Below, one piece after another: positions 25,084-29,820 of a DNA stretch of 64,000 bases; the stretch's first letter is position 1, and every line of letters begins with the position of its first letter. The DNA comes from Flavobacteriia bacterium (GTDB lineage: Bacteria; Bacteroidota; Bacteroidia; Flavobacteriales; Schleiferiaceae): positions 1 through 64,000 of the forward strand of contig JABXHW010000014.1 of the NCBI GenBank assembly GCA_013373425.1, in the 5' to 3' direction. The notes below the pieces were generated by a model. The model was not told the origin of the DNA. It was given only the letters and a program-made list of their open reading frames with translations, and ran no database searches. The translations under genes were made by a program, and so were the position numbers.

Positions 25084-26402
25084 TGGCAAGTTTGAATATT
25101 CCTGAGTCAAAAAAAAATCGTGTTGTCATTCTAGGTGGTGGCTTTGGTGGTCTCACTCTCGCGAAAAAACTTTCATCACGTGAATTCCAGGTTGTACTTG
25201 TGGACAAGCATAATTATCACACCTTTCAGCCTCTACTCTATCAGGTTGCTACCGCTGGGCTAGAACCCGACTCAATCGCTTACCCGCTCAGAAAAATCTT
25301 TCACAAGAAGCAAGAATTCTATTTCCGTGTTGCGGAGGCCAAAGCTGTTGATGAAGAGAAGTCAGAGCTGGTTACTGATAGAGGAAATTTGCGTTACGAT
25401 CACCTAGTGCTAGCCATGGGGAGCACAACAAACTTCTTCGGCAATGAGAATGTGGAGCGCTACGCCATGCCGATGAAGTCATTGCCTGAAGCCTTGAACC
25501 TGCGAAGCCTAATTCTTCAAAACTTCGAAGCTTCACTGCTAACCGACGACCTCAAGGAGCGAGAACGACTCATGAACTACGTCATTGTAGGCGGTGGTCC
25601 GACAGGCGTAGAACTGGCAGGAGCCATTGCAGAGCTCAAAACACACGTTCTTCCTGAAGACTATCCCGATTTGGACTTTAGGAGAATGACCATCCACTTG
25701 CTCGAAGCTTCACCAAGACTGCTCAATGGAATGAGTGATAAGTCTGGAGATCAAGCCGTGAAAGGATTGGAGAAACTTGGCGTGCAAGTTTGGACCGACA
25801 CTATGGTTAAGGATTATGATGGAGAAACGGTGATCACGGAAGACCGGAAGCTACCGGCAAGTACGCTCATTTGGGCTGCCGGAGTTAAAGGCAACCAACT
25901 TGATGGCATCCCCGACGCATCTAAGGAGAGAGGTCGAATTTTAGTGGATGAACAATGTCGAATCATGGGCATGAAATCCGTGTACGCCATTGGCGATGTA
26001 GCATTGATGAAGCAAGATTCTCACCCCAATGGACATCCAATGGTTGCTCCAGTTGCCGTTCAGCAAGGAAAGCTGTTAGCGGCCAACTTGCGCCGCACAA
26101 TTAAAGGAGGAGAATTGAAGACATTCTCATACTTCAACAAAGGAAGTATGGCAACCATAGGAAGGAACAAAGCGGTTGTTGATGTTGCAGGCCTGCACTT
26201 CAAAGGATTCATAGCATGGCTTATGTGGATGTTCCTTCACTTGATGGAACTCGTAGGATTCAGAAACAGAATCATTGCACTCGTCAACTGGATGTCGTCG
26301 TATTTCTCTTATGACAAAGGAATTCGATTAATTATCCGACCTTTCTCAAGAGAAGAAAGAAAAGTAGAAGATGTGCACGCTGACGTACCTTCCGAATCGT
26401 GA
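25083..26402 (+). CDS. ndh: Type II NADH dehydrogenase-like FAD oxidoreductase
   Basis: A 439-residue flavoprotein of the NDH-2 family, which passes electrons from NADH to quinone without pumping protons. The FAD site is near residue 16 (VVILGGGFGGLTLAKKL), the diagnostic segment NYHTFQPLLYQVATAGL near 43-59, and the NAD site near 176 (YVIVGGGPTGVELAGAIAEL). The C-terminal stretch (about 375-410, AWLMWMFLHLMELVGF) is the amphipathic membrane anchor. The start at 25083 agrees with the TAATG overlap with the DinB-like gene. The 3' end overlaps the NRDE gene by 32 bases. Quinone reduction is inferred from the family. Confidence 0.9.
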   Translation: MASLNIPESKKNRVVILGGGFGGLTLAKKLSSREFQVVLVDKHNYHTFQPLLYQVATAGLEPDSIAYPLRKIFHKKQEFYFRVAEAKAVDEEKSELVTDRGNLRYDHLVLAMGSTTNFFGNENVERYAMPMKSLPEALNLRSLILQNFEASLLTDDLKERERLMNYVIVGGGPTGVELAGAIAELKTHVLPEDYPDLDFRRMTIHLLEASPRLLNGMSDKSGDQAVKGLEKLGVQVWTDTMVKDYDGETVITEDRKLPASTLIWAAGVKGNQLDGIPDASKERGRILVDEQCRIMGMKSVYAIGDVALMKQDSHPNGHPMVAPVAVQQGKLLAANLRRTIKGGELKTFSYFNKGSMATIGRNKAVVDVAGLHFKGFIAWLMWMFLHLMELVGFRNRIIALVNWMSSYFSYDKGIRLIIRPFSREERKVEDVHADVPSES

Positions 26403-27051
26403 TGGATTTATAGTCACACAAAATCGAGATGAGAGCCCTCTTCGCGGCAAACCTATATTCCCATTCCGTAGTGAAGAAGGCTACACCTATCCCAAGGATC
26501 CTGATGGGGATGGCTCGTGGATGATGACCGACGGAAAATCGGTAGTGTGCGTTTTGAATGGTGGCTACGAACCCCATGAAAGGAACCCTCCCTATCGACA
26601 TAGCCGCGGACTACTGCCTCGAATATTGCTCGACCGTCCTCAATTAGAATTGACTCCGAGCGATGCGGAAGGTTTGGAGCCCTTCTCTGTTTTTATTTTC
26701 AACGCATCCAAGGTCGTTAGGTATACTTGGGATGGAACATCACTCTTTGTGGAGTCCTTCTCCCCCAATGAAAATCACATATTCCAGTCTGCTCCTCTTT
26801 ATTCCAATGCTATGCAATCTATGCGTTCGCTTTGGTTCGACGAGTGGCTCTCCGAGCATTCACCGTCTAAAGACACCATTCTCGACTTCCACTTCAATGG
26901 AGGCGATGGTGCAGGAGAAACGAATATCTGCATGTATCGTCCAGGCGTACAAACTACCGCAATTACTCAGGTTTCGATTTCTACTAATTCACCTAGCACG
27001 TACTTCTTCCACTCCATTCTGTCTGGAGAAGAACTAACTATCCATCTATAA
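26371..27051 (+). CDS. NRDE/TANGO2-family protein
   Basis: A 226-residue protein of the NRDE family, named after the conserved motif seen here as QNRDESPLRGKP (about 17-28) behind the near N-terminal MCTLTY. The N-terminal Cys2 is conserved in this family and is proposed to act as the nucleophile of an Ntn-type fold. Human TANGO2 affects lipid and haem handling; bacterial roles are unknown. It starts inside the 3' end of ndh (32-base overlap), so translation is coupled. It ends the five-gene run that begins at 23841; no terminator is evident. Confidence 0.85.
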   Translation: MCTLTYLPNRDGFIVTQNRDESPLRGKPIFPFRSEEGYTYPKDPDGDGSWMMTDGKSVVCVLNGGYEPHERNPPYRHSRGLLPRILLDRPQLELTPSDAEGLEPFSVFIFNASKVVRYTWDGTSLFVESFSPNENHIFQSAPLYSNAMQSMRSLWFDEWLSEHSPSKDTILDFHFNGGDGAGETNICMYRPGVQTTAITQVSISTNSPSTYFFHSILSGEELTIHL

Positions 27052-27092
27052 GTTGATAGTGTCCGAATTGCTGGATGTAAATTGACTTCACA

Positions 27093-27148
27093 GTACTTTG
27101 CATTCACATAGTACTTTAATTTTTTAGGTACCTTGCATTGCATAGTAC
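27093..27148. promoter_or_regulatory. Tandem palindromic operators upstream of the PadR operon
   Basis: Copy 1 (27093-27114) begins GTACTTTGCA and ends ATAGTAC. Copy 2 (27128-27148) begins GTACCTTGCA and ends GCATAGTAC. Both are imperfect palindromes with GTAC at each end and a TGCA core. Copy 2 overlaps the likely -33 region of the promoter whose -7 box is TATATTTG, so binding would block transcription. PadR itself, encoded two genes later, is the obvious candidate binder. Confidence 0.6.
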
Positions 27149-27159
27149 CATATTCTTTC

Positions 27160-27167
27160 TATATTTG
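27160..27167 (+). promoter_or_regulatory. -7 box of the PadR-PspC operon
   Basis: TATATTTG matches TAnnTTTG fully. A TTGC at 27138-27141, 18 bases further up, could serve as a -33 element, and it lies inside the second palindrome. Confidence 0.6.
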
Positions 27168-27191
27168 ACCCATCAACAAAAACTAAAACAC

Positions 27192-27629
27192 ATGAAACCA
27201 GTACTAACAATTCTCTTCTTGGGTGCCTTCACATGGGCAACACAAGCTCAAGATTTAGGATCTATTCACGGCTACCTTGCCGACATTGAAGGGAGCATTT
27301 CGATGGACATCGACATGGACTTGGATGACATTTTCGATGGAGAAGTCAACGGCTACTCTGTAGAAGGAGATGCAAGCAGAACCAAGTTCAGTGTAATCAG
27401 CGAGTCGGAATACGACATGGATGAGATTTACCACTACGTGTACAATGCGCTGAATCGCTCTGGATTGAAGAAGCTTGTCATTGAAGAATCAGATGACGGT
27501 CAAGCTTTCATCTTCGTAGAAGAAACAGGACGAAACGTAGAGGAGGTTTACGCATTCATTATCAGCGATGAAGACGTGCTCGTTTTCGCAACGGTGTACG
27601 GAAACTTCATTATCACAGAAGAAGACTGA
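27192..27629 (+). CDS. Small secreted protein, first gene of a PadR-PspC operon
   Basis: A 145-residue exported protein with a signal peptide (MKPVLTILFLGAFTWATQAQ; start at 27192). The mature part is very acidic, with the run MDIDMDLDDIFDGEV near 37-51, and ends with short strands (VLVFATVYGNFIITEED). It may belong to the DUF4252-like small exported proteins found near such operons, but I am not sure of the family. It is the first gene behind the double palindrome, three bases before the PadR gene, so it should be expressed with padR and pspC. Confidence 0.65.
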   Translation: MKPVLTILFLGAFTWATQAQDLGSIHGYLADIEGSISMDIDMDLDDIFDGEVNGYSVEGDASRTKFSVISESEYDMDEIYHYVYNALNRSGLKKLVIEESDDGQAFIFVEETGRNVEEVYAFIISDEDVLVFATVYGNFIITEED

Positions 27630-27632
27630 AAG

Positions 27633-27971
27633 ATGAAGATAGAGAACACAAAAGCGCAGATGCGCAAGGGAGTACTAGAGATGTGCATACTCTCTACCCT
27701 TCAGAATCAAGATGCATATGCATCCGACATTATCGACAAACTCAAGGAAGGCAAGATGATCGTTGTGGAGGGTACACTCTACCCCCTACTCACACGATTG
27801 AAGAACGCCGGATTACTTTCCTACAGATGGGAAGAAAGCAAAAGTGGTCCACCTCGAAAATACTACAGCATTTCAACAGAGGGAAAGGCCTTTTTAGATG
27901 AGCTACAAATCACATGGGAAGAGCTCGTAAAAGCCGTTGAAGTAACCACAGCCAAGAAAACAAAGTCATGA
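27633..27971 (+). CDS. PadR-family transcriptional regulator
   Basis: A 112-residue regulator. The winged helix-turn-helix runs from 10 to 90: MRKGVLEMCILSTLQNQDAYASDIIDKLK, then the recognition element TLYPLLTRLKNAGLLSYRWEES and the wing GPPRKYYSISTEGKAF. Short PadR-s1 regulators are dimers held by the C-terminal helix (about 90-110). In many bacteria PadR binds palindromic sites and is released by small molecules or stress. The stop overlaps the ATG of the PspC gene by four bases. It probably represses its own operon through the palindromes at 27093-27148 (inference). Confidence 0.9.
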   Translation: MKIENTKAQMRKGVLEMCILSTLQNQDAYASDIIDKLKEGKMIVVEGTLYPLLTRLKNAGLLSYRWEESKSGPPRKYYSISTEGKAFLDELQITWEELVKAVEVTTAKKTKS

Positions 27972-29767
27972 ATAAGACCATCAACATAAATCTAGCCGGT
28001 GTTATTTTTCACCTGGACGAGAAGGCTTACGAGCAGCTGACCGACTATCTAGCGAAACTCAAAAGCCAGTTTAAGAATCAAGAAGGTGGGGATGAAATCC
28101 TTACTGATATTGAAGCTCGTATTGCCGAAATCTTTACTGACCGTCTCAACGACGGCCGTGAAGTGGTAAGTCAGGAAGATGTACAATCTGCCATCGCAAT
28201 CATGGGTCAGCCTGAAGATTACGCAGATGCAGACGAAGATGAGCCTGCTTCAAAGAACTATAAGGAGGATACATATGCCCACGTTGGCAAGAAACTCTAC
28301 CGCGATACCGAGGACAATATTCTCGGTGGTGTAGCCAGTGGTTTGGCACATTACTTCAACACCGACCCTGTTTGGTTGCGTTTGATATTCCTACTTCTTC
28401 TATTCGGAGGTGGCTTCGGATTCTGGGCATACATCATCCTATGGATTGTTATTCCAGGTGCAAATACCACTGCTCAGAAACTCCAGATGCGAGGAGAGAA
28501 AATAAATATCTCCAACATTGAGCGCTCTGTCAAGGAGCAAATCAAGGACTTGGGTTCTGAGTTGGAAAATCTTGGAAAGAAGGGCACTTGGAAGCGCACA
28601 GGAAATAAAATTGGCAATGCAATCGAAGACATCGTGGATGGAATCATCTCTGTGCTAGGTGCCATTTTTCGTGTGGTCATGAAGATTTTCGGCGTGGCCT
28701 TGCTGATTGCAGGAACTATCTTCTTGGTGGTTGCATTCTCAGCAGTGGTGGGTCATGGAATCGACTTGAATGGTGCCCACTTCGGATTGAGTGAAGCACG
28801 TGAATACTTGACTGTTTTCCTTCCTGAAGGATACACCCACACTTATGTTTGGGTTGCGAGCATCCTCACCGTAATTGCTCCGCTCGTTGGACTTGTTTAC
28901 CTCGGTGCACGCATCCTCTTCAACTACAAAATGAAGAACCGCATGCTCACAGGCATCACCGGATTCTTGAGCTTTTGCGGAATCGTGATGTGGATTGTAT
29001 TGGCTTTTGCTTCTGCGAATGACTTCGACAACGGAGAACGCCTTCGTCAGGATTTGGCTCTTGACACCATTGACAAAGAGATGGCGATTGAGATTCGTGC
29101 AGAGAACGCTGGGTACAGTATTCCAAATAACGGCTTGTTCTACATTGAAAATGATGAAATGGTGATTGATGCCGTGTACTTCGATATCCGCAGAACGCTC
29201 GACACAGTGCCGTACATCGAGATTGAAAGAGAATCAAGAGGTGAGTCTGAGCGCGAAGCCATTGAACTTGCCGAAGGCATAGAAATGAATGTCCTTCAAG
29301 ATGGAAACATCCTGTACATCGACAGATTTGTTCGTGTGTCTACAGACCAGAAGTATAGAGGTCAGCATGTTTCAGTGACCCTTTACCTTCCTGTTGGATA
29401 CAGTGCGTACTTGAGCAGTTCATCTAGACATATCATCCACGACATCGATAATGTAGACGATCGATTGGACAGACATATGGACGGTCACGTTTGGATCATG
29501 ACAGAGAAGGGTCTCGACTGTGCCGATTGCTCTAGCTTCGAAGGGAATGCACGCCTCAGATCGAGAAACGACTTTGAGAAAGAGTGGATTGATGAAGCTC
29601 AGAAATTTGAAGAAGACCGTGAGAATGGTGTTGATGAAGAGGAAGAAATGGACATCCCAGAAATTCCTTCACGCCAGAATCGAGATACCGTTCCTCAGCT
29701 CAATGCATCCATTCACATAGATAGCATTGGAGCCAATAATTACAGTCAGACAGAAGTCCTGATATAG
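27968..29767 (+). CDS. PspC-domain membrane protein
   Basis: A 599-residue protein. Residues 1-80 form a soluble N-terminal part (INLAGVIFHLDEKAYEQLTDYL, then EILTDIEARIAEIFTDRL), residues 110-170 are the PspC domain (GKKLYRDTEDNILGGVASGLAHYF, then a membrane helix), two or three more helices lie at about 225-350, and the C-terminal 240 residues form an extracytoplasmic beta-rich part. PspC partners respond to membrane stress in other bacteria; in Bacteroidota this fused form almost always sits after a PadR gene. It overlaps padR by four bases (ATGA) and ends at a strong terminator. The stress role is inferred. Confidence 0.88.
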   Translation: MNKTININLAGVIFHLDEKAYEQLTDYLAKLKSQFKNQEGGDEILTDIEARIAEIFTDRLNDGREVVSQEDVQSAIAIMGQPEDYADADEDEPASKNYKEDTYAHVGKKLYRDTEDNILGGVASGLAHYFNTDPVWLRLIFLLLLFGGGFGFWAYIILWIVIPGANTTAQKLQMRGEKINISNIERSVKEQIKDLGSELENLGKKGTWKRTGNKIGNAIEDIVDGIISVLGAIFRVVMKIFGVALLIAGTIFLVVAFSAVVGHGIDLNGAHFGLSEAREYLTVFLPEGYTHTYVWVASILTVIAPLVGLVYLGARILFNYKMKNRMLTGITGFLSFCGIVMWIVLAFASANDFDNGERLRQDLALDTIDKEMAIEIRAENAGYSIPNNGLFYIENDEMVIDAVYFDIRRTLDTVPYIEIERESRGESEREAIELAEGIEMNVLQDGNILYIDRFVRVSTDQKYRGQHVSVTLYLPVGYSAYLSSSSRHIIHDIDNVDDRLDRHMDGHVWIMTEKGLDCADCSSFEGNARLRSRNDFEKEWIDEAQKFEEDRENGVDEEEEMDIPEIPSRQNRDTVPQLNASIHIDSIGANNYSQTEVLI

Positions 29768-29792: not shown

Positions 29793-29820
29793 AAGGTCAC
29801 CGGAAACGGTGGCCTTTTTT
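29793..29820 (+). terminator. Intrinsic terminator after the PspC gene
   Basis: AAGGTCACCG-GAAA-CGGTGGCCTT is a 10-base-pair stem with one G-T pair and a GNRA tetraloop, followed by T-run TTTT. It overlaps the cruF 3' end by two bases. Confidence 0.92.

Follow-up and report, generated by a model that had tools for sequence, protein, structure and literature searches.

The padR operon in the window, by which we mean the whole 64-kb stretch of DNA analysed, carries at its promoter a 21-bp element that recurs with padR and pspC in relatives and is nearly unique in its own genome. The sequence-only reading had described imperfect GTAC-ended palindromes at 27093-27114 and 27128-27148, upstream of TATATTTG, and both were found there; the second belongs to the recurring element. 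Judging from sequence comparisons, we consider it highly probable that both palindromes are operators of the operon's own PadR, which would repress itself by occluding the -33 region of the promoter.

Operon, promoter and palindromes

The features of the region are the following.

27093..27114, + strand: site 1, distal candidate PadR operator, GTACTTTGCATTCACATAGTAC, 22 nt; 7 of 11 pairs complementary; about -79 to -58
27128..27148, + strand: site 2, proximal candidate PadR operator, GTACCTTGCATTGCATAGTAC, 21 nt; 8 of 10 pairs complementary; about -44 to -24
27138..27140, + strand: TTG, candidate -33 element within site 2, at -34 to -32; 19-nt spacer to the -7 box
27160..27167, + strand: -7 box TATATTTG (TAnnTTTG), from the sequence; inferred +1 near 27172
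27192..27629, + strand: gene 1, small secreted DUF4252-like protein, 145 aa; ORF with a weak Pfam match (E 0.0035, below cut-off)
27633..27971, + strand: gene 2, padR, 112 aa; PF03551, 64.1 bits against a curated cut-off of 27
27968..29767, + strand: gene 3, membrane protein with HAAS-like, PspC, LiaI/LiaF-TM and Toastrack parts, 599 aa; Pfam
29795..29820, + strand: probable intrinsic terminator, GGTCACCG-GAAA-CGGTGGCC-TTTTTT; GC hairpin and T run, read from the sequence

The sequence and its ORFs gave a tightly packed operon of three genes on the + strand, in which the padR stop is overlapped by the pspC start (ATGA). Gene 1 starts at the ATG at 27192; the automatic ORF begins further upstream, at a TTG. 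The 112-aa PadR passed the Pfam threshold for PF03551 (64.1 bits vs 27) and is the only PadR-family protein detected in the window genome (3.09 Mb, 96% complete). Its closest solved relative is PDB 5h20 (E 3.7e-39, residues 1-103), which we take to be BF2549 of Bacteroides fragilis; BF2549 was reportedly the subject of a 2017 paper by Lee, Kim and Hong. In the 599-aa protein, PF04024, PF22571 and PF22744 exceeded the Pfam cut-off and PF22564 (HAAS) fell under it. The HAAS-like N-terminal part matched with E values from 1e-5 to 5e-4 and fell short of the gathering score in all eight PspC proteins submitted, namely the window protein and seven relatives (seven of ten extracted PspC N-terminal parts). 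The ORF preceding the operon (26371-27051) starts with MCTLTYLPNRDGFIVTQNRDES and had no Pfam match at E 0.01; its start presumably resembles those of NRDE/TANGO2 proteins.

The transcription start (about 27172) was inferred by setting -12 at the first T of TAnnTTTG, after PMC6847099, whose passages place this box at -12 to -5 and report Flavobacterium promoters with only a weak -33 element. With this start, site 2 spans about -44 to -24 and contains a TTG at -34 to -32, which bears out the earlier suggestion that the second palindrome lies over the likely -33 site. An inverted repeat over the promoter of a PadR-encoding operon, a feature of autoregulation, is thus provided by site 2, given the inferred start. 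A scan of 26900-27400 for sigma-70-type promoters and terminators, which does not cover Bacteroidota promoters, returned nothing.

As bare palindromes the two sites are ordinary; comparison with relatives is decisive. The 64-kb window holds 532 22-mers with at least 7 complementary pairs and 30 21-mers with at least 8, and palindromy itself was discarded as evidence, since equally symmetric 21- and 22-mers are common. With the requirement tightened to GTAC at either end plus 7 or more pairs, 20 simulated 64-kb sequences together yielded one 22-mer and no 21-mer; the real window has such sites at 27093, 27111 and 27128, that at 27111 being an overlapping register between the two. A 21-position matrix derived from relatives, and retrained only on the 84 sites outside the window's family (see below), scored site 2 at 29.6, site 1 at 29.4 (with one inserted base allowed at a deduction of 2 bits) and the next stretch of the window at 7.4.

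We searched the complete genome (3.09 Mb) with a profile of 27 positions and 40 rows, one of them site 2 itself, accepting E values up to 10 and scoring 150 of 958 first-look candidates. Only site 2 (24.3 bits) and site 1 (15.8 bits, E 0.042) were returned, each on both strands. A larger regulon in this genome was sought with up to three mismatches allowed; the 94 matches per strand, vs 73 for the reversed pattern, were no clear excess.

Conservation and anatomy of the proximal element

Among 395 genomes sampled from the phylum, 96 had a PadR match at E 1e-15, and the 92 orthologs other than those of the window's own family all belong to the same class (G306, G315 and G329, with weaker PadR matches, are outside this set). 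The proximal element was found upstream of 84 of the 92, in 46 of 48 genera. All 84 sites scored above all 3,075 simulated upstream regions, whose maximum was 12.3, and none of 206 downstream and 205 reversed upstream stretches reached 10. By family, the counts were 8/8 (f2), 37/40 (f3), 10/10 (f4), 12/12 (f5), 2/2 (f6), 1/1 (f7), 1/1 (f8), 3/8 (f9), 3/3 (f10), 3/3 (f11), 3/3 (f12) and 1/1 (f13), which leaves five of the eight f9 orthologs and three of the 40 f3 orthologs under the threshold.

A PadR match at E 1e-8 was obtained for 66 of the 88 genomes of the window's family, and the detailed footprint was drawn from the best 30 loci. The element stands upstream at 14.5 bits or more in 29 of these, the window included; the remaining locus, L024, has a weaker form beside TATCTTTG. 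A further set of named loci comprised the best 80 of at least 578 matches, 79 of them with at least 300 nt upstream (L061 was left out, L097 has 436 nt only, and L100 is labelled as another phylum). The element was present in 75 of the 79 and under the threshold in four. The named and the other locus sets overlap by at least one, L120 and L028 being identical around the site. The matrix behind the family and named counts (103 sites) was trained on those same two sets; the independent figure is therefore that of 84/92 in other families. We checked for absence of the element in relatives with the same operon and found the proximal site present both outside the family (84/92) and within it (29/30), a result that, at the level of sequence, supports the earlier proposal of a self-controlled PadR operon.

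Four paralogous PadR loci (L215-L218), excluded from the ortholog counts, have neither the element nor a PspC-like gene downstream. Two of these padR genes, L216 and L218, are preceded by a different palindrome, approximately ATACATAGYATTACAATGTAT.

In the relatives, the proximal element is an oriented 21-bp site of the form GTAC-N13-GTAC with the consensus GTACTWTGYNTTGCATARTAC; the window's site 1 is one base longer. Across 188 sites, T2, A3, G8, C14, A15, T19 and A20 are near-invariant (each in 187 or 188), followed by C4 (181), C21 (177) and G1 (171). Its symmetry is imperfect, with a mean of 7.1 of 10 pairs, and its orientation toward the promoter is fixed, as expected for an operator with a promoter element inside it. 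The "TGCA core" seen in the sequence-only reading is really an oriented TGYA-N-TRCA and lacks full symmetry. With one site taken per genus, the 21 bp averaged 1.48 bits, vs 0.35 in the 57 bp upstream, 0.70 in the -7 region and 0.29 further downstream. Taken as an operator, the element appears to be the expected kind of thing, but unusually well conserved. A LexA box was considered and set aside; passages of PMC8565304 name TTAC-type, GTTC-type and other boxes, and "GTAC" does not occur in that text.

Many Flavobacteriaceae-type loci (for example L045, L064 and L080 among the named loci, and L123-L162 in the phylum sample) have in common TGTTAA-type repeats directly 5' of the operator and, early in the leader, a block resembling CATAAGAAACTATTATAT immediately past TAnnTTTG. 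Neither was seen in the window.

Conservation of the PadR recognition helix, EGTxYPLLTRLKN, is 97% or higher in 202 pooled orthologs, and this unvarying helix fits the unvarying site. Residue-base covariation near the helix, calculated with kinship ignored, was clearest at positions 49 (L/I/V), 59 and 54. Position 59 is D in 20 of 20 loci with the ACAAGATAC operator variant, and position 54 is N in four of seven hand-picked f9 loci, kinship being ignored in both counts. These f9 loci (L181, L195, L199, L201, L204, L205 and L214) have the most drifted operators, for example GTACTTGGTCATGCACAGTAC and GAATTAGGTTATACAAGGTAG, and PadR positions 7, 21, 38 and 102 are changed in six or seven of the seven. 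They offer a natural test of co-change between PadR and operator.

The distal copy, sites elsewhere and competing readings

The pair of palindromes did not hold as a general element. A distal copy occurs in five of the 30 family loci, from three genera; the other 25 lack GTAC at the corresponding offsets. L003 (the window), L004, L006 and L007 have a GTAC 34-35 bp before the proximal site, and L005 has ATAC at -35 and GTAC at -17. Two partial cases, L079 and L089, were seen among the named loci. On this footprint, the distal copy is a lineage-specific elaboration, and the class-wide element the proximal site. Binding of two dimers to the same DNA face, as had been suggested from a spacing of about three helical turns, is not favored either: the centres of sites 1 and 2 are 34.5 bp apart, which amounts to 3.29 turns of 10.5 bp each and would put the dimers about 100 degrees apart (the 34-bp spacing of L006 and L007 gives 3.24 turns). 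The four GTAC arms of the window start at 27093, 27111, 27128 and 27145, in steps of 18, 17 and 17 bp.

Site 1 could also be what is left of a promoter/operator duplication, decayed and without a present role, so that only site 2 works; this reading is to be taken seriously, if not the one we lean toward. The restriction of the distal copy to five of 30 family loci fits such decay, as do the poorly kept inner letters of the distal site in L004, L005 and L006 and its extra base in the window and L004. The GTAC arms and their 34-35 bp spacing have nevertheless been retained in three genera, and the window's site 1 scores as well as site 2. The same tandem pair, with 34-bp spacing, also stands at a second promoter in G025, before a small secreted protein, although the similarity of its leader to that of the padR promoter makes a recent promoter copy likely.

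Across the relatives, the element keeps company with padR and pspC. A PspC-like gene comes after padR in all 199 orthologs, the window included, that have more than 1.2 kb downstream. In 134 of 192 loci the gap between site and padR is at least 160 nt, enough to hold a cargo gene, and in 58 it is shorter, and the site remains at the promoter whether padR is near or far. In the loci whose translations were read by eye, the cargo gene varies by lineage (DUF4252-like, small multi-spanning membrane, small secreted, or none), whereas the operator, padR and pspC are constant. The element is tied to padR-pspC and not to the cargo gene. With a looser pattern, 49 of the 88 family genomes yielded 52 distinct sites, against one for the reversed control: 48 fall no more than about 1 kb 5' of a PadR match, two precede padR-like starts truncated by a contig end (G041, G047), and two are off padR, the G025 site and one in G024 between ORFs, one of which encodes a small secreted protein. 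The latter two, G025:C18 (L251 position 1565) and G024:C254 (L250 position 1501), are second operator copies in the two other genera with a tandem pair.

The strict exact pattern, which is much less sensitive than the matrix, matched ten distinct sites in nine of the 395 phylum genomes, with zero in the listed rows for the reversed control. Nine of the ten lie outside the window's family, and five are off padR: L034, L036, L041, L037 and L033 (G387, G458, G277 and G434). Two of these precede similar ORFs resembling outer-membrane beta-barrel/carboxypeptidase-regulatory proteins, one precedes a small secreted ORF, one is near small secreted ORFs and one is near an HtrA/Deg-like ORF, all of these ORFs being named from their translations only. 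These exact sites may be extra targets in envelope functions. The off-padR sites of both searches (5/10 and 2/52) leave room, in some lineages, for further PadR targets or for a second protein that uses this site, and those outside the family show that single-target control is not general.

It is accordingly conceivable, though we think it very unlikely, that a regulator other than PadR binds the element and controls the padR-pspC operon. In addition to the five off-operon sites, one of which is in a genome without a PadR ortholog at E 1e-15 (G387), this reading could draw on the difference between the motif and the textbook PadR motif. It is opposed by the company the element keeps: PadR orthologs in 12 families outside the window's own (84/92 loci), and none of the four paralogous PadR loci. 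We saw no other gene accompany the element so regularly.

A further reading, in our judgment most improbable, holds that the 21 bp serve mainly a sigma-factor subclass, as its promoter element in the -33 region, and that their symmetry is incidental. The orientation is indeed fixed, and a TAnnTTTG-like box (the looser TnnnTTTG was also accepted) follows within 30 nt in 183 of 192 loci, at 13 nt in 156 of them and at 11 nt after site 2 in the window. TTG occupies element positions 11-13 in 127 of 188 sites. The 61 sites without it still score as the element, so that a -33 role is not universal, and the Flavobacterium promoters in passages of PMC6847099 have only a weak -33 element. The window's site 1 lacks a TAnnTTTG box 11-13 nt after it, and the profile search of the own genome found the element only at this operon.

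Just as improbable is dual control, with activation of the operon by PadR at site 1 and repression at site 2: site 1 lies at about -68, a position from which activators often work, but short PadR proteins are not known to have an activator surface, and 25 of 30 family loci lack the pair when exact GTAC is required.

We return to self-repression by PadR, from which the following mechanism can be proposed. A PadR dimer on site 2 would cover about -44 to -24 and keep RNA polymerase off the -33 region, and the DUF4252-like/padR/pspC operon would thereby repress itself. Site 1, 34-35 bp upstream, would bind a second dimer in this genus and two others, making the repression stronger or steeper. Release would probably be triggered at the membrane, where the HAAS-like N-terminal part of the PspC-Toastrack protein might hold or alter PadR under envelope stress. 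What the sequences show directly is the sites, their position on the promoter, their conservation alongside padR-pspC and their near-uniqueness in the genome; that PadR binds and represses there, what site 1 does and which signal acts are inferred from it.

A wider generalization is more doubtful: a single, unusually stable pair of PadR and GTAC-N13-GTAC might control the PspC-Toastrack operon across Bacteroidia, with its cargo swapped and tandem arms that allow a dimer array. If so, lineages would exchange the cargo gene behind the promoter and keep the switch, and the tandem operator of the three genera, with four arms spaced near-evenly at 17 bp, could hold a regular array of PadR dimers.

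Comparison with known PadR systems

The regulator and the operon type are already known; the operator is, as far as we searched, undescribed. It did not appear in the searchable full-text literature on PadR with PspC or Bacteroidetes (subscription papers lay outside this scope), nor in the passages of PMC11237479, PMC6457526, PMC3506622, PMC4534193, PMC4517056 and PMC8565304. The main text of the Flavobacterium psychrophilum start-site map (PMC9723704) mentions neither PadR nor PspC. For PspC-type stress operons, a signalling logic (HAAS-PadR) has been proposed, and within the literature searched no DNA target was described in this group. With a candidate 21-bp operator retained in 46 of the 48 genera sampled, the system lends itself to direct experiment. 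The operator site predicts which accessory genes belong to the envelope-stress response, and it enables the design of reporters, footprints and inducer screens in a laboratory Flavobacterium.

The closest precedent for the gene arrangement is the HAAS-PadR dyad proposed in 2024 (PMC11237479), in which, according to its passages, HAAS domains pass membrane signals to PadR partners. HAAS-PspC-LiaI/F-TM-Toastrack fusions are described there with PadR beside them; the window has a similar arrangement, with a HAAS-like match below the cut-off. The word "operator" does not occur in the main text of that paper, and its passages give no DNA site.

For the DNA site, the nearest comparison is with the short PadR autoregulators LmrR (Lactococcus) and bcPadR1 (Bacillus cereus) of PadR subfamily 2, which likewise have an EGTLYPxLxRL helix. 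In passages of PMC3506622, PMC4534193 and PMC4517056, these are associated with ATGT/ACAT repeats whose spacer is 8-10 nt, a trait of the sites of characterised members and not of the PadR protein family. The canonical ATGT-N8-ACAT occurs zero times in 27040-27200, and ATGT-N8..10-ACAT was found within 10 nt of five of the 188 sites in relatives. LmrR and bcPadR1 bind their own promoters at or near an inverted repeat (passages of PMC3506622 and PMC4534193), which is what we predict for the PadR of the window. Their sites are of the ATGT/ACAT type (degenerate in bcPadR1), whereas the element described here is GTAC-N13-GTAC with a TGYA-N-TRCA core, and their setting is drug-pump genes or the regulator's own genes, whereas here it is an envelope-stress operon.
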